A stretch of 15,884 nt of DNA from Phlegmacium glaucopus (lineage: Eukaryota > Basidiomycota > Agaricomycetes > Agaricales > Cortinariaceae), in NCBI GenBank assembly GCA_015039465.1, contig MU130157.1:703492-719375 (forward strand), read 5' to 3'. Made by a program: the position numbers and the translations under genes. Within the stretch, counting starts at the first letter, position 1. Each line of letters begins with the position of its first letter. This document shows positions 1 through 14,454 of this stretch, piece by piece. Under the pieces are notes generated by a model that saw only the letters and a list, made by a program, of their open reading frames with translations, ran no database searches and was not told the origin of the DNA.

Positions 1-1870
1 GCGGAACTACTCAAGCTCTGGTGCAAGGTGGATGTCAGGCTTATAATCAACCATGCATAGTACATATATTACATGATATGGTGTCGACGACGTTGTCGTT
101 CAGGTGGCTCTCCTATAGGTATACCAGACAGTAATCAGTCATGCATGGGTTAACAAAAGAACTCCACACGAGGTTTGCGGTTGTGTTGCTCCGGCGGAGA
201 TTTCGGAGGAAATAGAGGGATTATTATCGTCACTCTTAATCTTCTGCCTTAATTTATAATGAGTGCCGTCGCAATCCTAAAAGTTTATTTTTTCTTTTTA
301 AGAGGTTGTTTATCCGTCGCCGTCGTCCTCGTAGTAGCAGCGACTGGAGTCTAAGGAAATTTCGGAACTGACGTTACTTTTAAGGAAGGAAAGGGTACCT
401 CGAAGCGGTCAACTACTCCTGCAGCGGTCGGAAGCCCACACTCTTTATTAGTTAGAATTTAACTGTTCTTGTGGCTGACCCTACTTGAATGTTGGACCTA
501 ATATCGGCGTGAGCGAAGTGGGAATTTCCGCCAACGTTCTCTACCTTTTTGGACTTGGGTGTTTAGGAGTTGGTGGTATAGGTAGTGTCGCAAGCAGGGT
601 TTACCCAGGAGGACTGTGCTACGGGTTACCTATTCCGAGCAGAACTTATGAAACGCGGTCGCAACCTCCATGCGTTGCAACCGTCTAGGGACACCCTTCC
701 CTTCTCTGCTTTGGCATATAAAGAGAAAGAACTGAGCCGGTGCAGGTGACCACGACGCAAGCTGAGCTCGACCTCGTCCGAGTTTCTGGAAGTGGTAACT
801 TAAGACACTTTGAAAGCACCACTCACTTAGTATTAGAACTTAAATATAATGTATGGGGTCTCGCTTGAGATTGAAGTCGTTAGAGGAAACTTTAAGATCG
901 TCGGACTTGTCGGAGTCGACCAAGTAGTAGTAGTTTAAGAGGGGGTCGTATGAGCTCTCCTAGTGCCAGTAGTAGTACTAGTAGGAGGGCCCGACGACAG
1001 TGGTATTGTAAAACTCGATTATTTGGTATTGTCATTCGTTAATTAGTTAGTAGTGATGAAGTTAATGGAAATTAACGAAACCAGGAGAGTAGACGGTCTC
1101 AGGCAAAGGTGGGGCGTTCTTCCGGTCTTCCGAGTTGGGCGAAGCGAGCAAATAGTAACGATGATCTAGACTCTTCTACAGCAATCTAGACAAATTATAA
1201 GTGCATGGACCCGAACAAATGACAACATCCGAGGAACGCAAAGAACCATCGTTGTCGCGACTAGTATCAAGGTTGTTGTCCACCACGGAGAGCTCGGCGT
1301 AAATAACGAAACGCTTTTAGAGGTGCAACTCAAAAGACTTTTAAATTCAGGCTAATAAATACTAGAGTCCTGTTACATTGAATGAAAGTGACTAAAAAAC
1401 TATGCGACTACTCGTCGGAGTCTCCAATCCGGACAGTTCTACAGTAACAGGAGTCTGAGGCTCAGGTTGAGTCTGACAACTAAACCTAACAACTGTATTA
1501 GAAGTAGAAACAGTACTAGCGGTAGGCTATTTAGCATGTGAGAATTTGGTCGTGGCAGTGACAGACACAGGTTTCAGCTAAGGAGTCCATATAGTCGGTA
1601 AAGAAGACTATATAAAGGATTGATTAACAATTACTATTAAACTTATCACTCCAAACTTCTTTGAGTAGTGGAAGTGACGGCTGTAGTATGAACCTATAGT
1701 AAAGGCTCAGGTTCATCATCAGTAGTAGTAACAGATGTTGGAGGTGGCTACATTCGTAAAAGGGGGAACCTTACTACCCGACTCCCAAAAAGTATTCGAT
1801 TGGCTAACACTTATGTTGTCTATAAGTGGAACCCGACCCAGCTCACCCGGAATTGGACGTTTAGGCCCGC
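1..1870. other. Block written in reverse, not complemented
   Basis: As given, neither strand holds a convincing gene here; the longest open frame is 67 codons. Read from 1870 down to 1 without complementing, the block gives long coding exons joined by introns with GT starts and AG ends. Reversed-order introns, in window positions, are 1670-1618, 1384-1336, 1207-1169, 1067-1017, 855-804, 491-431, 265-219 and 80-31, of 39-61 bp. All exon phases agree. The final reversed exon (30-1) continues in frame into forward sequence at 1871. A biological inversion would give a reverse complement, so this is a string-handling artefact or a deliberate change, not a genomic rearrangement. Continuity on the same strand shows that the block was reversed rather than complemented. 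Confidence 0.95.
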
Positions 1871-2637: not shown

Positions 2638-3527
2638 CGCGGAGAGCATGACATCAAGAGTGAAATGATATTTGAGGGCAACCGTGGTTTTATCTTTCAC
2701 GATTAAGCTGGTGGTGCTCAGGAGTTGAAGGTAGTACAGGAGTTCATCAAGGAGTGTTCGATGGCAAGAGATGTGAGAGAGCAACTTCATGCAATCTGGT
2801 GTGTGTTAGTACTTGCCTTTAGAGAACAAATTTCTTGACAGAGAAAACAATATTTTGGGTAGGTACTGCATTCCAACAAGTGATGACCGACCAATCACGG
2901 CAGCAGAACAGAAGTTTTTCAATGAATGCGGGACAGGGCTTGGTATGTGCATCATTTTATCAATATGTTACTGTGAAGGATAAGTTTGTGAAGTACCAGT
3001 GATTGTTTTGTGGACCAAGACTGACTCTCTTGATGTTGTTAAAATCAAGCAACTCATGAAGGAAGGTAATAGCAAGTCTGAGGCAATGCAACAGGCTCCC
3101 CAAAAAGCTTGGGCTGATTATGAACATGATATCCATCCACTCATTGATAGCTTTAAATATCCACCAAAGGCATATGTTGCACTTCGAAGTAAGTGTTATA
3201 ATTGTTAACAATTATTTGGTTAATTGTGTGGTGTAGATATGGATGAGCCTGGAGCTGATTGTAGAGACTTGATTGAAAAAACAGCAGCTGCACTGTCTAG
3301 TGAAGAATTACAACAGTTCTTTCTTTCAACACAGCAAAATAATATTGAGGAGTGTATTAGATATGGGGTTCAAAGGTTAGAAACCATGATGTTTTCAAAT
3401 TACCACATTAACCATAATTCCTAGCCTTTTGAATGAGATGGAATCAAGACTGTTGGAATATTTTAAGAAGGAAGGGGGTTGGGCATATTTAATAGCAAAG
3501 GTTCTGAAATATTTTCCACAAATTGTG

Positions 3528-5363
3528 GTATGTAATTGGTCAGACTAAAGAAGCTATTGACAACTAATTGATTTTTGTAGAGTGTTATCTTGAGCACTTA
3601 GCATTCAATCTTTTGCACTAACATATATTATGAAGAGTGTGTGTAGAAAAAGAGTTGTCATTATGTTACATTGCTTATCACCTTAATATTTTTGACAGAT
3701 TGTAAGTACAAGACCATTTTCATGTGCCTTGACTTTACTCTTTTGACAGATTGTAAGTGGATGACCATCTTGATCTGTCTTGACTCTAGCTTACCCTTCT
3801 GACAGTGGGTATTAAGTGCAACATCTTGATCTACCTTGACTCTAGCTTACTCTTTTCACAGTTGGTAAGTGCAAGACCATCTTGACCTGCCTTGACACTA
3901 GCTCACTCTTTTGACAGCCTGTAAGTGTGGAAGACCCATCCTGATCTGTCTTAAGTTCTTAACTCTAGCTCACTCTTTTGACAGGATGTAAGTGGAGGAC
4001 AAACTGTTTTGACTCCATCTTATTCTTTTGACAGTGGGTAAGTGCAAGAGATCATCTTGATCTATCTTGATTCTAGCTTACTCTTTTCACAGTGGGTAAG
4101 TGCAAGACTATCTTGATCTTCCTTGACTCTAGCTTACTCTTTTGGCAGGAGGTAAGTGCAAGACCATCTTGATCCAGCTTCACTCTAGCTCACTCTTTTG
4201 ACAGAATGTGAGTGCAAGAATCATCTTGATCTGGTTTGACCCTAGCTTACTCTTTTGACAGCCTGTAAGTGCCAGTCTGCAAGACCATCTTGATCTGCCT
4301 TAACTCTAGCTTACCCCTTTGATAGGCTGTAAGTACTACACAACCATCTTTATCTGGCTTGACTCCAGCTTAGTCTTTTGACAGTTTGTAAGTGCAAGAC
4401 CATCTTCTCTTTTGGCTCCAGTTTACTCTTTTGACAGAGAGTAAGTGCAAGGCCATCTTGGTCTGGTTTGACTCTAGCTCACTCTTTTGACAGGATGTAA
4501 GTGCAAGGCTGTCTTGACTGCCTTAACTCTAGCTTACTCTTTTGTTAGCCTGTAAGTGCAAGACCATCTTAATCTGCCTTGACTCTAGCCTTACTCTTTT
4601 GACAGGATGTAAGTGCAAGACCATCTTGATCTGCCTTGGCCCTTGACTCTAGCTTGTTCTTTTGACAGCCTGTAAGTGTGGAAGACCATCTTTTGATTTG
4701 CCTTGACTCTACCCTACTACTTTGACAGGATGTAAGTGCAAGACTATCTTAATCTGCCTTGACTCTAATTTACTTTTTTAATAGGCTGTAAGTGCAACTT
4801 GAAGTCCATCTTGAGTCTTGATCTAGTTTGACTCTGGCTTACTCTTTGACAGCATGTAAGTGCAAGACCAACTTGATCTGAGCTGCTTGACTCTAGCTTA
4901 CTCTTTTGTCAGTTGGTCAGTGCAAGACCATCTTAAATTTTAATCTAGCTTATTCTTTTGACAGAAAGTAAGTGCAAGACCATCTTGATCTGGCTTGACT
5001 CTATCTTACTCTTTTGACAGTATGTAAGTACAAGCACAGAGAAGTCTCTATTATTCTGTCACCCTTTTTTATTGATGTTTGCTTTATTGTTCTGTCTTTA
5101 AATGATAGGAGGTATGTACAAGGAAGTTATAACTTAATTGGTCTCTTGTTGATGTTGCAATTCATTTGGACAGGAAGTAGGTGCACCAATCATGCCTTTA
5201 TGTCTGCTTATCTGATTGGCATATCTTTTTTGGGGCAGTATGTATGTTGAACATGTAACATTATTTCCCAATTACTCCATGACTTACATTTCTCAACAGA
5301 AAGTATGTGTAATAATTTTCTAATCTGTCTTTTTCTCTGTTTATATACCTTTGTTTACAGATA
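3528..5363 (+). repeat. Tandem array of intron-like units separated by single-codon (3-nt) exons
   Basis: The core (3699-5023) has 23 tandem units, most of 50-57 bp (range 47-65), resembling GTAAGTGCAAGACC...ATCTTGATCTG...GACTCTAGCTTACTC...TTTGACAG. Between each AG and the next GT are exactly three bases. Triplets by start position: 3699 att, 3750 att, 3806 tgg, 3862 ttg, 3918 cct, 3985 gat, 4035 tgg, 4093 tgg, 4149 gag, 4205 aat, 4262 cct, 4326 gct, 4385 ttt, 4438 aga, 4494 gat, 4549 cct, 4606 gat, 4669 cct, 4729 gat, 4785 gct, 4853 cat, 4913 ttg, 4965 aaa, 5021 tat. Diverged units with the same layout follow (5109 gag, 5174 gaa, 5239 tat, 5300 aaa, 5361 ata), and two weaker ones precede (3581 agt, 3636 agt). 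The upstream exon ends in phase 0 and no triplet is a stop. Unit length equals that of the gene's ordinary introns. It may be spliced stepwise, or removed as one long intron. Confidence 0.9.
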
Positions 5364-5496: not shown

Positions 5497-5566
5497 GATT
5501 CCATCTCCAAAATTATGTCACCAATTGTGAGTGTTTGCTTTTTGGTAATACACTGACAGGAAAGTG
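5497..5566 (+). other. Candidate short exons linking the array to the C-terminal exon
   Basis: After the last clean microexon (5361-5363), an AG at 5495-5496 precedes an open 30-nt segment (5497-5526, ten codons). It is followed by the donor GTGAGT at 5527 and an acceptor at 5559. Then comes a 7-nt segment (5560-5566) with donor GTAAAT at 5567. Leaving in phase 1, it would join 5708 (or 5714) in exactly the frame that encodes the C-terminal segment. The intervening intron would be only 33 bp, which is short even for a fungus, and 5364-5496 (133 bp) would be a longer intron holding decayed units, so the exact path is inferred. Confidence 0.4.
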
Positions 5567-5974
5567 GTAAATTTTATCTTCCAACTTTTTCAAGCTTTCC
5601 AGCATATCCACCAAATTCACATTAAAACAAGCTACATACTGTGCAATTGGCATGTATCTAATTCAACATTTTTTTTCACTCTCCATGATATTGATTTTTG
5701 CTATTAGTTGCAGCTATTGTTGGCCATTTGTCTTTCTTTCTTCATGAAGAATCACCAAGTACAAGAGACTCTTTGGAAAGAGCTGTTCAAATTTATCAGC
5801 AATCAACTTCTGATGTCTCTGTCAAGCAAGCAATTGAAAAGATTTTTGAACTTCGAAATTTTTTTCAAAGGCATCCCTCGTATTGACAAGGTCAATCGTG
5901 AATTACTGGCCTGGGAGGCTGGACGGACTGCATTGAATAATCTCATATGTATGGATTCACTTCTTATTTGTTGA

Positions 5975-7067: not shown

Positions 7068-7427
7068 TTGTAAGGGCAACCTACAGCCAAGAGGGGGTGG
7101 GGACTCTAGAGAGAGTGGACAGTCTATAAAGACTAAGTAAGGTAGCAATAAGCTAGCAACAGTAGGGGGGTTCCAGTAATAATGAGATAAGGAGTGTAAC
7201 TACTGACTACTACTTGAAATAAGGTAGTAGCCAAACATTGACAAACAAGTATGTAAGCTAGTTGAAATGAAAGTAAAATATAAACAATAGATGGGGTATA
7301 TACCTGAGAGGTGTCCCCTTACATAGTTCTTCTCTTGTCTCAAAATATGGATATCAGCAACCTGTGGGACCTTCATTGTGATCTGACAAGCTTTGGCAGT
7401 ATTGTGTGCACAATTGGATAGGAGCAA
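7068..7427. other. Non-coding stretch between two repeats
   Basis: Contains a G-rich run near 7090-7107 and another (AGTAGGGGGGTTCC) near 7159-7172. No gene was recognised; the open frames are short and lack splice support. It could be internal or flanking debris of the LTR-like repeat that ends at 7067. Confidence 0.4.
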
Positions 7428-7869
7428 TCACTGCTGGCACTGGGTGGTGTTTCCCTTAGAAAAACTTATTTTTAGACATGTTTTATCATTTCCAAATAAT
7501 TTTTCTCATGAAAACACAAAAAGTATTTCTGAAGGAGAAATTCTAAAAATACATCAGGTGTTTCTCATGTGTTTCCCAAAGATAGATATTATGTTTTTTT
7601 AAAGGTTTTCCTTTCAGAAACAGCAAGGAAACACCTATTTCACCAATCACTGAGTGGAGTAGGTGTTTCCCTGCTGTTTCTGAAAGGAGGACCTTTAAAA
7701 AAACATAATATTTATCTTTGGGAAACACATGAGAAACACCTGATGTATTTTTAGAATTTTTCCTTCAGAAATACTTTTTGTGTTTTCATGAGAAAAATTA
7801 TTTGGAAATGACAAAACATGTCTAAAAATAAGTTTTTCTAAGGGAAACACCACCCAGTGCCAGTAGTGA
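7428..7869. mobile_element. Fold-back MITE-like element 1
   Basis: The two arms of about 205 bp are near-perfect inverted copies, with roughly seven differences by eye, around a loop near 7637-7655. The ends read TCACTgCTGGCACTGGGTGG on the left and the reverse complement of TCACTaCTGGCACTGGGTGG on the right. There is no transposase frame of its own; the two ORF families across it are mirror images created by the arms. Such long hairpins are typical of non-autonomous DNA transposons. No clear target-site duplication is visible (left flank GGAGCAA, right flank ATGCACA), so the superfamily is unassigned. The high arm identity suggests recent origin or gene conversion. Confidence 0.8.
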
Positions 7870-8853
7870 ATGCACATGTAATAAGGGTGTTTATAGTAAG
7901 ATAAGTAATGCATATCTATGATCTGTAGTTATTTGGATCATCAGGTCTAGTATGAACAGGTCTGACAAAACCAGCACCTGGGATGACTTGGGGAGGGTTC
8001 AAAACCCCAGGGGGCACTTGGGCAGTGAGAGCCTGAGGAGTGTGACCTGCAAGTGTGGTAGAAAAAGCTCTCCCAAGTTGCAACTGATTCATAACATCCA
8101 TGTTGTTAAAGTGATAAATATAATGCATCTTTAGCCTAAGTAATGTTGACTGGAGCTTGACTGGAGGCTGGATTTGACACAGTTGTACCATGACCATCCA
8201 CACTGCCACTGGGTTCTAGTTTGGGCACCAATAATCACTATATTGGTGGTGGCCATAGCCAGCCATATTCAGGTGACGGATGAGCTTCCTGTATGTGTTC
8301 ACTAGAAAAAGATTCATTGGTGGTTGGACATCAAAGCACCTATCTTGAATGAAAACTGTACTTACCTCAATGAGAATGCCAGCCATTAGGGAGATCATCT
8401 TTGGTATTTCACAAGGATATATCATATGAGATTCCATAGTGACCAAAAGGCAAGCCTACAATGGTGGGTGGTATGGGGGGCAGAACAAACACCATGGCTG
8501 TGATGCTCATGATGGTTAGGTTACAAATCATTGAGGGTGAACTTGGGATCTTGCATACTTACCTGGATTTTGTAAGGAAATCTAGTACCAATGTGAGGTG
8601 TTGTTGAACATTGAACATTGACATTGGATAATCATATGACAATCAGAGTGACCAAAGTATGTCATGGTTCAGTCTGCTTTCAGAACTTTCATGCCCCATT
8701 AACATTGATCTTCCTCTGCATCAACCATGCATTGTGCTTCCACTGAAGTCAACTTCACTGAAGACATGGTGAAAAAACAGATCAGATATGAAACCATCTC
8801 TGGAGAACAGGCTGAAGTGCTTAGATCAGACCTACTGTTAAGTTCAAGGACTC
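7870..8853 (-). pseudogene. Possible degraded gene or exons on the minus strand
   Basis: Two consecutive minus-strand frames look more protein-like than the other frames here. 8446-8216 includes PPMNLFLVNTYRKLIRHLN and GYGHHQYSDYW before a stop. 8209-7916 includes QLGRAFSTTLAGHTPQ and a Pro-rich tail (PPGVLNPPQVIPGAG, PDDPNNYRS) ending in TAG. A GTAAGTAC at about 8367 on this strand could be a donor. Joining the pieces needs a frame change near 8212, so the gene is probably broken. The family is not recognised. Upstream, 8450-8853 shows only short minus-strand open pieces. This is a weak call. Confidence 0.25.
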
Positions 8854-9242: not shown

Positions 9243-9741
9243 CATTATTTCAAGGTATATGCATCATTATCTTATGCTTACAGTGTGAAATCAAAAATTC
9301 TGAGCTGATAGGCATGTTAAGAATCAAAAAATACATATATTATGTCACCAAAACTAGTTGCAAAAGTGCATTGGTGAAATGTTATAAGAGCCACTACTTT
9401 TTCTGGTGGGCACAGCCACCCAAAAATGAACATGGCTGTATGCAACACATAGCACCTTTGCTTCATGGCTTAATCTCCTTTCCTCTCAAACCACTATATA
9501 TCTGAGCCAAAACTCCATCTCCACATCCATTATCCACTTCTTTATTGAATAAATACTTCTGTGCCCACCTAAAATAGGCAGAAAAAGTAGTGGCTCTTAT
9601 AACATTTCATCAATACACTTTTGCAACTAGTTTTGGTGACATAATATATGTATTTTTTGATTCTTAACATGCTTATCAGCTCAGAATTTCTAATTTCACA
9701 CTGTAAGCATAAGATAATGATGCATATACCTTGAAATAATG
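9243..9741. mobile_element. Fold-back MITE-like element 2
   Basis: An arm at about 9243-9417 is repeated inverted at about 9570-9741. The termini are CATTATTTCAAGGTATATGC and its reverse complement, and the arms extend through ATAAGAGCCACTACTTTTTC. The loop of about 150 bp includes a TATATAT stretch and no recognisable gene. The frame crossing 9200-9505 is a by-product of the arm and is not a gene. It sits immediately beside LTR-like copy b, as if inserted into or next to it. No target-site duplication is evident. It is unrelated in sequence to element 1. Confidence 0.75.
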
Positions 9742-10355: not shown

Positions 10356-10841
10356 GGCTGTGTGATGTGATGTGATGCTCCCACAACCATAACAGGAGGT
10401 GGCCATCCCCACTTGAAGGATAATCCAGCTCAATGACCCTGTCCTGTATTCTACATCTCATCAATGATGTACAGGATGTCTGTACACCCTAAGATAGATG
10501 CCACCAGGAACTGGCACCCCTTATGTAAGCAGATTGAGCTCAATTTCTCAACCTCAATAACCTGCCACAAAAGGAATATTTCAAAAATGCAAGCCCACCA
10601 AACAGATTAGAGCTACTTTGTAAACATATCTCTGTGCTTAGAATTCTTAAAAACTTCTTTAATCAATGAAAAGTTCTCCTTTTTTATTGGAGTCAGAAAA
10701 AGCTTCCAATGTCACTTTTGTGCACAGAAAAGGTAAAAGAAAATTCAGTCGAATTTTTAGCCAAACATTTCGCTGCTTACATAAAGAATCACGTGGTCTA
10801 ATCTCAGATCTTTTATCAACATCTTGAAGTGCGATATCACA
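10356..10841. other. Stretch between palindrome arms; holds a short inverted copy of the central segment
   Basis: 10491-10532 is the near-perfect reverse complement of 12614-12655 (GATGCCACCAGGAACtgGCACCCC on this strand). On the minus strand this reads a short PVPGGIYL peptide before losing its frame. A 62-codon minus frame (10847-10659) has no support beyond being open. No other gene was recognised. Confidence 0.45.
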
Positions 10842-12199
10842 CACCAATACTGATTGGTAGCATGAGAAGAAAGCTTAAAAGTTGCCATCATGAAAATAAG
10901 CGGACTTTGAATTCACTTACCTATTTTGGAAGCAGCCCTGAATCGCGTTCCTGGTCAACAAATCATTCGTTCAATGTTATCACCCTCATCGCTCATCATA
11001 CTCTCAATGTCTCACACTATGCTCTCCATCATTTTCACTATCGACATGCTCCTAAGCATATACCATCCGTTCGTTCCTTGGTTAGTGATCCAGCAAAGCG
11101 ATCAATCTACTATTTGCATCGGTCATCGGCTCACATTTGATTGTATCTTTGGTCCATCATTTCAAGAACGGCCCCTTTATGGACACATCAGCTACATCTC
11201 CCATTATGTACAAGGCTTTGTCATTGTTGTTGTGGCTATGGACCCACAAGTCTTCCCTTCAGCCATCTATCTTGCCATCCCTCGCTCCTGGATCTCACTC
11301 AGTCCCCTATCCTCAATTATCTACCTCCTATCTTATCATTCACTGCCAAAACCATCATTCACGCGGTACATGAAGCCTTCCCACCCTCTTTATGACAACT
11401 TAGGAAGTCCAGGAGGATCACAACTAAGCAGGAATTGCAGATGAATCAGCAGCAGAGGATTATTCTCGCAGTGTGTCAAGTGTTATCAAGGCTGCGCGAC
11501 ATGGGATCATGGGCAAGTAGTGTTTTCTCGGGAACAAGGCTGCGCCTTTCAAGTGTTGACTCAGGACCTTTCACATTTTTGACATGACCACACACCTATG
11601 GAGTTGATATATTTTTGCTATTGGACTATGTACACTGCCTTCTTTTCTTTTCTCTCGCACTTTGACACTTTACAGATTTTTTTTTATTGTTCCTTTTTCT
11701 TTTCCATTGTTCTTTTCTTCTCGCAGCTGTCCTCTCTTTATCTTTCTTCCTTTGACAGCACGTACTTCTTTCTTTTTATGGTTCTACATAGCCTCATCCT
11801 TAGGGTATAAATACTGCTCTTTTGTACCAGGATAGTTAGTTTCCCCCGGTTCATCTCAATTCATTCTTACTCCCCAACAGTCATCCTCTCAGTGGAATTC
11901 CAGTGAATTCCTCCCTCTAAGTTCGCTTTTCAGTCCCTTACTGTCATTGTCCTCTACTGTCAACCGCTATAGTCTTACTGAAGACTCTTTCTTACCCATC
12001 CTCATCCTCATCTTCTACCTCATTCATCTTCCAAGACCTTCATCCTCATCCTCCTCACCTCTACTCTTGCTCCCTATCTCTGTGTGTTACAAGTCAAGGT
12101 TACACCTTCCCTAAACGAACAACAGGGAGTCTCTTGACCTAAAGACTGGTCCACTGCTCTCTGGTTGGTGTTTTATAACAACACAAACAATGATTTATA
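10842..12199 (+). repeat. Inner arm B of nested palindrome, LTR-like
   Basis: Inverted partner of 12757-14050, roughly 90% alike by eye over the whole length. Features in order: a region with a 172-codon open frame (10926-11444) that is frameshifted in the partner; a long pyrimidine-rich tract (about 11630-11780); TATAAATAC at 11806; a CT-rich segment (11850-12070); and ...TTGGTGTTTTATAACAACAC near the inner end. Pyrimidine tract, TATA box, then transcribed leader is the layout expected of an LTR promoter, and ...TAACA is a common LTR end. However, exact TG...CA borders and a target-site duplication could not be fixed. It could instead be a very long terminal inverted repeat of a DNA transposon. 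Confidence 0.8.
11806..11814 (+). promoter_or_regulatory. Candidate TATA box in arm B
   Basis: GGGTATAAATACTG follows about 150 bases of pyrimidine-rich sequence, a common fungal core-promoter arrangement. It points toward the palindrome centre. The same motif, on the other strand, is kept in the partner arm at 13088-13096. Confidence 0.35.
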
Positions 12200-12756: not shown

Positions 12757-14050
12757 TATAAATCATTGTTTGTGTTGTTATATAACACCAACCAGAGAGC
12801 AGTGGACAGTCTTTAGGTCAAGAGTCTCCCTGTTGTTTGTTTAGGGAAGGTGTAACCTTGACTTGTAACACACAGAGGTAGTGGGTGAGAATAGAGAAGA
12901 GGAGGATGAGGATGAATGAGAAAGAGTCTTCAGCAAGACTATATCAATTGACAGTAGAGGACAGTAACAGATAAAAGGTTGAAAAAGTGAACTTGAGGGA
13001 GGAATTTACTGGAATTCCACTGAGAAGATGACTGTTGGGGAGTAAGAATGAATTGAGGTGAACTACCTATCCTGGTACAAAAGAGTAGTATTTATACCCT
13101 AAGGATGAGGCTATGTAGAACAATAAAAAGAAAGAAGTACATGCTGTCAAAGGAAGAAAGATACAGCTGCGAGAAGAAAAGAACAATGGAAAAGAAGAAG
13201 GAACAATAAAAAAATCTGTAAAGTGTCAAAGTGCAAGAGAAAAGAAAAGAAGGCAGTGTACATAGTCCAATAGCAAAAATATATCAACTCCATAGGTGTG
13301 TGGTCATGTCAAAAATGTGAAAGGTCCTGAGTCAACACTTGAAAGGTGCAGCCTTGTTCCTGAGAAAATACTACTTGCCCATGATCCCATGTCGTGCAGC
13401 CTTGATAACACTTGACACACTGTGAGAATAATCCTCTGCTGCTGATTCATCTGCAATTCCTGCTTAGTTGTGATCCTCCTGGACTTCCTAAATTGTCATA
13501 AAGAGGGTGGGAAGGCTTCATGTACCGCGTGAATGATGGTTTTGGCAGTGAATGATAAGATAAGAGGTAGATAATTGAGGATAGGGGACTGAGTGCAATC
13601 CAAGAGTGAGGGATAGCAAGATAGATGGCTGAAGCGAAAAATTGTGGGTCCATAGCCACAACAACAATGACAAAGCCTCTGACATAATGAGAGATGTAGC
13701 TGATGCGTCCATAAAGGGGCCGTTCTTGAAATGATGGACCAAAGATACGATCAAACGTGAGCCGATGACCGATGCGAATAGTAGATTGATCGCTTTGTTG
13801 GATCACTAGCCAAGGAACAAATTGGATGGTAGATGCTTAGGAGCATGTCGATAGTGAAAACGATGGAGAGCATAGTGTGAGACATTGAGAGTATGATGAG
13901 CAATGAGGGTGATAACATTGAACGAATGTTTTGTTGACCAGGAACACAATTCAGGGCTGCTTCCAAAATAGGTAAGTGAATTCAAAGTCCGCTTATTTTC
14001 ATGATGGCAACTTTTAAGCTTTCTTCTCATGCTACCAATCAGTATTGGTG
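12757..14050 (-). repeat. Inner arm B' of nested palindrome
   Basis: Reverse-complement partner of 10842-12199, about 60 bp shorter because of small deletions, mainly in the pyrimidine-rich and CT-rich parts. The long frame of arm B is broken here: a one-base length difference (around 13820-13830) splits it into two minus-strand frames (13966-13751 and 13806-13447). The TATA-like motif is at 13088-13096 on the minus strand. The divergence shows the two arms have evolved apart or arrived separately. Confidence 0.8.
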
Positions 14051-14454
14051 CGCGATAACGTGGAACCAATTTGTCATCTTAGCTAATACCACTGATTCTG
14101 TGATGTACAGCAGCAGTCATTGGCTAAAACTCCAAGAATGCGGGACAGGACAGTTGAATATGACATCCTGTTACAACTTAGAACGACTCAGAAGCTTCTA
14201 AGTCGTAAACAGATTGTATAAAAGTTGCCTTCATTTGTTCGATGAGCTCAGCAATTTCCAAAGATCACTCTCGTGGCAGCTTCTTAAGAGTTTGAGAAGG
14301 TCAGAGTCAAGATAACAGAGGTTAAAGTCTCAAGAATTAGCTAAGGTAATACAAGACAGTAAATCAAACGACATCTATACTAATAGAGAGAGTCTTGAGA
14401 CTTAAAGTAAGGCATCCGCATGTGATGCATGTTGTGTGGGTATCAAATAGGTGA
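14051..14454. other. Unpaired stretch between arms B' and A'
   Basis: Has no counterpart in the matching position on the other side (10356-10841), so the palindrome is asymmetric here. It contains a near-perfect 22-bp palindrome at 14184-14205 (CGACT-x-AGAAGCTTCT-x-AGTCG) with one mismatched pair. The open frame 14001-14201 starts inside arm B' and is not supported as a gene. Confidence 0.4.

Follow-up and report, generated by a model that had tools for sequence, protein, structure and literature searches.

Chains of predicted one-codon exons in a G-domain gene family of Phlegmacium glaucopus

What is encoded, if anything, by a tandem array of intron-like units that are parted from one another by exactly three bases? 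The question is raised by a stretch of 15,884 nucleotides from the basidiomycete Phlegmacium glaucopus (assembly GCA_015039465.1, contig MU130157.1, positions 703,492 to 719,375 of the forward strand), called here the window, in which such an array lies within a gene for a predicted G-domain protein. Tandem Repeats Finder (TRF) calls a repeat of period 56 at 3690-5034, with 23.4 copies and 73% matches. The preliminary description of this DNA had reported 24 AG-NNN-GT repeats at 3699 to 5023 and 13 different triplets among them; a recount returned both figures, with AG before and GT after every one of the 24 triplets. Five more AG-NNN-GT units follow downstream (Table 1); their introns are not copies of the array unit, yet they can be aligned to introns of paralogs. 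Read in phase 0 after the exon end at 3527, the 29 window triplets give IIWLPDWWENPAFRDPDPDAHLKYEEYKI, free of stops. We consider it highly probable that the array consists of chained one-codon exons, in frame and free of stops, which are predicted to be spliced and translated into the variable segment of the G-domain protein.

A search of the species' genome assembly (60.5 Mb, 259 contigs) for the array, scoring 40 of 49 candidates, returned 111 matches; merged by hand, these make up at least 40 array loci, and array-pattern matches occur outside the merged loci as well, for example on contig C65. An exact intron pattern matched 254 + 165 times genome-wide, against 0 + 10 for its reversed control. 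Twenty-one loci, 20 fetched plus the window, were read in detail. Upstream of the array, all 20 fetched loci share gene sequence with the window from about 2.56 kb; downstream, similarity runs to about 5.87-6.19 kb in 18 of them and to 5.44 kb in L024, with no match in L014. Because gene sequence is shared around the arrays, the 21 read loci are, on sequence grounds, one G-domain gene family. Alignment of the paralogs yields seven 5' exons, including MSTSS..FRILVIGRANAGKTTI.. (P-loop), ..SNPGFIFHDS..GFEAGG.., YCIPTSDDRPITAAE.., VPVIVLWTKTDSLD.. (G4-like) and ..YFPQIV (phase 0). Behind the array there are a few one-codon tail exons, then exons of 30 nt (ASVSKIMLPT in L012) and 55 nt, and finally the exon VAAIIGHLSFF.., in which the stop lies. 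The paralog models start MSTSS..FRILVIGRANAGKTT, and those of L012 (C237:178500-185500) and L020 (C127:453000-461500) form one open frame from ATG through the parsed array to the stop, in phase 0 on both sides; L012 possibly has one more unit (CAA) 5' of the parsed array, and in L020 a unit whose donor is broken precedes the parsed chain. Several paralogs carry an extra one-codon unit (acag-CAT/TAT/CAA-gtgtgt) inside the first intron region, a unit that is doubtful in the window.

An array of this kind might instead be a non-coding minisatellite of intron copies within one long intron, with 3527 joined directly to 5497 or 5708. Introns are places where tandem repeats grow, skipping to the 30-nt exon preserves the frame (phase 0 to phase 0), and the NCBI model P0002 fuses YFPQIV straight to DSISKIM, as though it passed over the array. 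In such a minisatellite the triplets would drift, stops included. Units were parsed with a position weight matrix blind to the triplets, taking the best chain per locus at a spacing of 40-95 nt; units past a break, including the window's five tail units, were excluded. The parsed set holds 873 triplets in 21 chains of 24 to 99 each, a few more units being lost at chain breaks. It contains one in-frame stop, where 93.1 +- 7.1 are expected (20000 permutations per codon position, minimum 65). When the concatenated triplets are shifted by one or two bases, stops number 28/852 and 128/852, and control triplets lie at expectation: 21 stops vs 22.9 in antisense, 106 vs 100.0 reversed, and 30 vs 29.9 in the complement. 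A purge of stops that affects the sense strand but not the antisense strand argues against the minisatellite, as do a diverged array that holds its spacing without repeat homogeneity and transcript-like contigs of relatives that carry a peptide at the array position, both described below; we regard that explanation as improbable. What the sequence offers resembles instead the consecutive very short in-frame exons of micro-exon genes, here exactly 3 nt, in phase 0 and stop-depleted. C is the third triplet base only once in 873, presumably because NNC-GT creates a CpG in CpG-poor surroundings. Other triplets also lie far from independent expectation (TTG, TCT and AGA high; CTT, TCG and TGT low), so that codon choice, besides stop avoidance, shapes the triplets.

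Splice signals are comparably strict. Parsed acceptors read AG in 870 of 873 cases, and parsed donors read GT in 859, GC in 12, CT in one and GA in one; GC, the commonest donor change, is a known functional donor. Since AG and GT belonged to the matrix, the count was repeated with units anchored on intron-body bases alone, giving AG in 255/258 and GT in 250 plus GC in 7 of 258. For the 573 units with a length of exactly 56 nt, deviation from consensus averages 9.6% in body columns and amounts to 0.2% in each AG column and to 0.2% and 1.9% at the donor G and T, while the triplet columns deviate by 62, 57 and 56%. The GTAAGT donor columns of these units are 94-99.8% conserved, and a CTTAC-like motif, which we take to be the branch site, stands about 10 nt ahead of AG. 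The array units thus have the ends of spliceosomal introns: GT/GC..AG, a donor consensus, a branch-like motif and a pyrimidine-rich 3' end. The earlier statement that AG and GT never change is true of every unit in the window and must be relaxed for the 873 units of the 21 loci, where AG fails three times and GT/GC twice. Dinucleotides this strict in nearly all units could also reflect recursive, stepwise removal of one giant intron, in which each AG-NNN-GT marks an intermediate step and the triplets are removed or rarely included. Known recursive splice sites place AG and GT side by side. They require neither a three-base spacer nor freedom from stops, whereas the spacer here is a codon under coding constraint, and we judge recursive removal very improbable.

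If the array is instead spliced into one-codon exons, the predicted protein would begin with a P-loop G domain at the N terminus, continue through a stretch that closes with a WFP/YFP motif into a variable segment of about 24-99 residues, each encoded by an exon of its own, and finish with a conserved C-terminal region. Splicing would be ordered, intron by intron, because a 3-nt exon is too small for two spliceosomes at once. As each unit is a whole codon, the gain, loss or skipping of units would never shift the frame, leaving the segment free to vary in length and content. The preliminary description had likewise proposed single-codon exons in the frame of the gene, any of them removable without a frame change, and its proposal agrees with the stop-depleted triplets of the paralogs, the strict splice signals and the array-like peptides that transcript-like proteins of relatives carry at this place.

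Its further suggestion, that a single intron plus one codon had been amplified, is not supported by a comparison of codons with intron bodies. Among the 573 56-nt units, 156 pairs have identical 49-nt intron bodies; the codons of these pairs differ at 0.669 per site, against 0.667 for all pairs, so codon and intron histories appear to be mostly separate. The notion that units with the same body share their codon was rejected overall and held only for a few pairs within a locus. Same-locus pairs with three shared rare body variants have the same codon in 13 of 33 cases (39%), against 15% of 98 different-locus pairs; with four shared rare variants the figure is 1 of 5 pairs, and with five, 1 of 3. 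Adjacent codons are identical in 97 of 852 instances vs 77.0 +- 7.8 in order shuffles, a weak excess when read as a sign of the target-site duplication seen, like terminal inverted repeats, in part of the known introner families. The nearest intron body lies in the unit's own locus for 110 of 573 units vs 33 expected. We read this as introns that spread or were converted independently of codons, plus occasional local unit duplication, the latter suggested by the greater share of common codons in same-locus pairs. Because codon and body are uncoupled, the intron bodies would derive from a small number of introner-like sequences that spread by insertion or replacement without regard to the codons between them.

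Sister genes carry arrays built of other units. In L033 (contig C164), a 76-bp unit is repeated in 30.8 copies, and the array starts directly after a WFPH motif. A 59-bp unit with GTGAGT donors is found in L035, L036 and L038. L037 (contig C60) has one-codon units in an uninterrupted run of 28, or of 43 under looser chaining, in a region where TRF reports no repeat; mean identity of its intron bodies is 0.649 vs 0.527 when shuffled, and the longest AG-NNN-GT chain at 45-95 nt spacing in 1000 Markov simulations was 3. This is the diverged array that fits poorly with a minisatellite. The arrays of L035-L038 lie downstream of G-domain exons, and a plain six-frame-style look found no WFP/YFP motif adjoining them; among these five loci, an identical insertion point is thus shown for L033 alone. 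L033, L035, L036, L037 and L038 together have 201 triplets and no stop, where 12.3 +- 2.7 are expected and zero was reached in 0/20000 permutations. A further array, in L034, stands in reverse order and was excluded from the count of sister arrays. Gene copies on contig C9 (L032) contain no array, and the fetched stretches of L039 and L040 contain no chain. The one-codon architecture therefore seems to have arisen, or to have been rebuilt, several times with different introns. As a separate observation, leucine is written mostly TTG in the 56-bp arrays (104 TTG, no CTT) and mostly CTT in the 59-bp arrays, an array-specific codon "dialect".

Proteins recorded from relatives may extend the picture beyond this genome. 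The jgi entries P0015 (contig of 1373 nt) and P0121 (955 nt) are unbroken across the 3'-half intron positions, and at the array position they hold LYVKFATLKWREMEMEWVTMMEWWEEEKEEWEEEWEKWEHHDLNL and VWIGYQFFKEYEFTKDGRRRTFKEFEEEEEGFLEFIEEEEKFFDTGFPMYDLI, respectively, about 40-50 residues that both entries span in full. Scored for array-like composition, these peptides reach +16.0 (P0015) and +6.5 bits (P0121), against a mean of -16.5 and a maximum of 0.8 for 167 control windows of 42 residues, part of which came from P0001 and P0003, the proteins that also supplied the background. P0127 (1301 nt) enters an array-like peptide after KYFPNVW, and P0130 (1447 nt) exits one into DSISHTMSF. Because entries P0123 and P0124, from other relatives, read through these introns as a translation of genomic DNA would, these four jgi entries are best read as spliced RNA.

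Existing gene models tend to break at the same point. The homolog set comprised the best 120 of 786 plus six, 126 in all, and is biased by length limits on candidates. Within it, 31 models end no more than 15 residues from the WFP/YFP motif, 18 end 16-40 residues past it and 20 continue further; another 38 are motif-less with a short tail, five are motif-less with a longer tail, and 14 are without the core motif. The Phlegmacium models P0004 and P0001, known to precede arrays, likewise end near the motif (the first exon of P0001 is identical to that of L025). These breaks hint at a wider occurrence in Agaricomycetes, a hint that is suggestive only. Apart from this, P0002 (NCBI BYT27DRAFT_7202008, partial) has an array-like peptide, EKIEEEEKYDWEYSLREYYQVQI, ending REYYQ.., which lies between two G-domain exons rather than following YFPQIV; its last 98 residues match L023 at 99%, and the DNA source of the insert was not found among the loci examined.

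Several observations weigh against an array of translated one-codon exons. In the window copy, the G-domain exon is 12 nt shorter than in paralogs, in its FHDS..GFEAGG region, so that a TAA is left in frame, and a 1-nt insertion near 5855 shifts the frame of the last exon. NCBI models do not traverse the array: P0004, the model of the window gene itself, passes 3527 into the first array intron (PQIVVCNWSD) and then stops, P0001 stops in the first array intron as well, and the direct junction in P0002 has been mentioned. The array-like peptides of relatives are known from protein entries alone and may be encoded there without one-codon exons. Units are broken by a deletion in L013, by the acceptors GG in L019 and L026 and AA in L028, and by the donors CT in L024 and GA in L027, and the one in-frame stop, a TAG, is in L010. 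Finally, the array peptides show neither a periodicity of hydrophobicity or charge nor a helical moment that clearly exceeds within-locus codon shuffles, so the peptide gives no sign of an amphipathic-helix fold.

The stop and the frameshift mean that the window copy may be dying. One-codon exons could then be real in some members of the family while the window copy is a pseudogene and its array a recent relic, a state of affairs compatible with the translated chain and one toward which we lean slightly. On the other side, all 29 window triplets are stop-free with every AG and GT intact, so any decay would be recent, and NCBI annotates a gene at this locus (P0004). Exon 1 was not found in the window or just upstream, where the stretch is largely masked; the P0004 model has an exon 1.

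The paralog models contain GRANAGKTT, matching the G1 P-loop GxxxxGKT, and TKTD or TKTE, matching G4 TKxD, and among the best 120 of 786 homologs several are named GTP-binding or G domain. The L012 model scores below Pfam gathering thresholds for Arf (21.1 vs 22.3 bits) and MMR_HSR1 (20.9 vs 21.9 bits), both at the P-loop, and a sequence search of PDB with the family profile returned 10 weak matches (E 0.001-0.01), mostly to the P-loop of Arf-like and EngA/Der proteins. A structure predicted for P0012, a homolog from another source, from a 39-row alignment has a mean predicted local distance difference test (pLDDT) score of 81.6, falling below 50 at residues 305-333, just past the WFPH at 298. 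Its nearest Foldseek matches are BDLP, GM4951, mitofusin and IRGa6 (E 4e-5 to 1e-3), at weak template modelling (TM) scores of about 0.2-0.4. Our best guess is a dynamin/IRG-like GTPase with a variable insert. The array segment might, speculatively, be a hypervariable recognition or linker part with a role in recognition or self/non-self discrimination.

No report of tandem one-codon exons was found in the open literature, most subscription papers and preprints lying outside this coverage. Exons of the aphid bicycle genes are reportedly longer than one codon and without a tandem array of homologous introns. Bicycle genes are similar in forming a highly divergent, many-exon family, with about 17 exons on average and more than 100 microexons in a "megacycle" gene (PMC9168663). 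Micro-exon genes (MEG) of Schistosoma likewise form a multigene family with numerous very short exons (3-81 bp, many per gene) and highly variable proteins; their exon sizes are mixed and their introns reach 5 kbp, whereas here up to 99 consecutive exons are predicted to be one codon each, with introns of 46-86 nt that are mostly alike (PMC10526429). The product here is a predicted G-domain protein; that of schistosome-type MEG is secreted and has a signal peptide. A single 3-bp micro-exon in Drosophila homothorax demonstrates that splicing can include an exon of 3 nt; it stands by itself, as an alternative splice form of a larger exon, and is not part of a chain (PMC7392893). Introners are near-identical introns in many copies, some with their own splice sites, and in one family insertion adds 12 bp to the transcript (PMC9860276, PMC4457414). 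Near-identical introns at many genomic loci are found here also (the 254 + 165 pattern matches), but known introner copies are spread over many genes, the closest pairs described being 145-626 bp apart (PMC4457414), whereas the present introns follow one another in tandem with a single codon between them, at one position in one gene family. That statement covers the 20 fetched loci and the window. Tandem genomic duplication is able to create introns, as described for one gene (PMC4974935); here dozens of units per gene are involved, with codon and intron histories apparently decoupled.

If the predicted chains are real, splicing assembles up to about 100 residues of a protein codon by codon. 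Such genes would probe how far exon definition and ordered splicing can go, as each 3-nt exon would be joined before its next intron is handled, and introns would serve as a recombination substrate at single-codon resolution. This could also account for the frequent breaking of gene models at one point in a large GTPase family of Agaricomycetes, and such segments may go entirely unnoticed in standard annotation and by RNA aligners. More tentatively, and at somewhat less than even chances, we propose that mushroom-forming fungi possess a large GTPase family in which one-codon exons, up to about 99 in a chain, encode the hypervariable segment; with introns spreading independently of the codons, the single codon rather than the exon or domain would be the unit of gain, loss and recombination. 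Such an evolved generator of protein diversity would have been built at least three times with different introns, in corresponding parts of these genes, and would perhaps be widespread in Agaricomycetes.

Table 1. Predicted features of the array-bearing gene, in window coordinates
Feature	Position	Strand	Basis
G-domain exon (RGEHD..HAIW in paralogs)	2638..2798	+	paralog alignment, recount
Exon YCIPTSDDRPITAAE..ECGTGL	2863..2942	+	paralog alignment
Exon VPVIVLWTKTDSLD (G4-like TKTD)..KAYVALR	2994..3188	+	paralog alignment
Exon MDEPGADCRDLIEKTAAALSSEELQQFFLSTQQNN..	3237..3375	+	paralog alignment
Last large exon 5' of array (LLNEMESRLL..LKYFPQIV), phase-0 end	3425..3527	+	paralog alignment
First intron region (GTATGT..GACAG)	3528..3698	+	comparison with paralogs
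Homogeneous array: 24 predicted one-codon exons, 3 nt each, with 23 introns of 47-65 nt between	3699..5023	+	TRF and unit parsing
Five predicted tail one-codon exons: GAG 5109, GAA 5174, TAT 5239, AAA 5300, ATA 5361	5109..5363	+	unit parsing, paralog alignment
30-nt exon DSISKIMSPI, phase 0	5497..5526	+	paralog alignment, paralog models
55-nt exon LSSISTKFTLKQATYCAI+G	5595..5649	+	paralog alignment, paralog models
Last exon VAAIVGHLSFFL..	5708..5974	+	paralog alignment

After the 55-nt exon, a GC donor (gcatg) stands at window position 5650 in place of GT, with nearly the same sequence in the aligned paralogs. Elsewhere, window positions 1-1860 and L034:1490-3610, the latter with its array units standing backwards, read as plain reverse order rather than reverse complement: their asymmetries of CA/AC, TG/GT and TA/AT run opposite to those elsewhere in the window. 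Matches to reversed control patterns numbered 10 for the 56-bp, 35 for the 76-bp and 0 for the 59-bp unit. We know of no biological process that yields plain sequence reversal, and these stretches probably stem from the record or from how it was handled. A long inverted duplication spans window positions 10832-12148 and 12807-14060, with six arm pairs of 76-614 nt at 87-96% complementarity and two open frames for nearly the same protein in opposite orientation; it likely represents inverted copies of a mobile element. Two hairpin-like inverted repeats resemble miniature inverted-repeat transposable elements (MITE), one at 7424-7873 with 220-nt arms, 95% complementary and 10 nt apart, and the other at 9243-9741 with 163-nt arms, 97% complementary and 173 nt apart.
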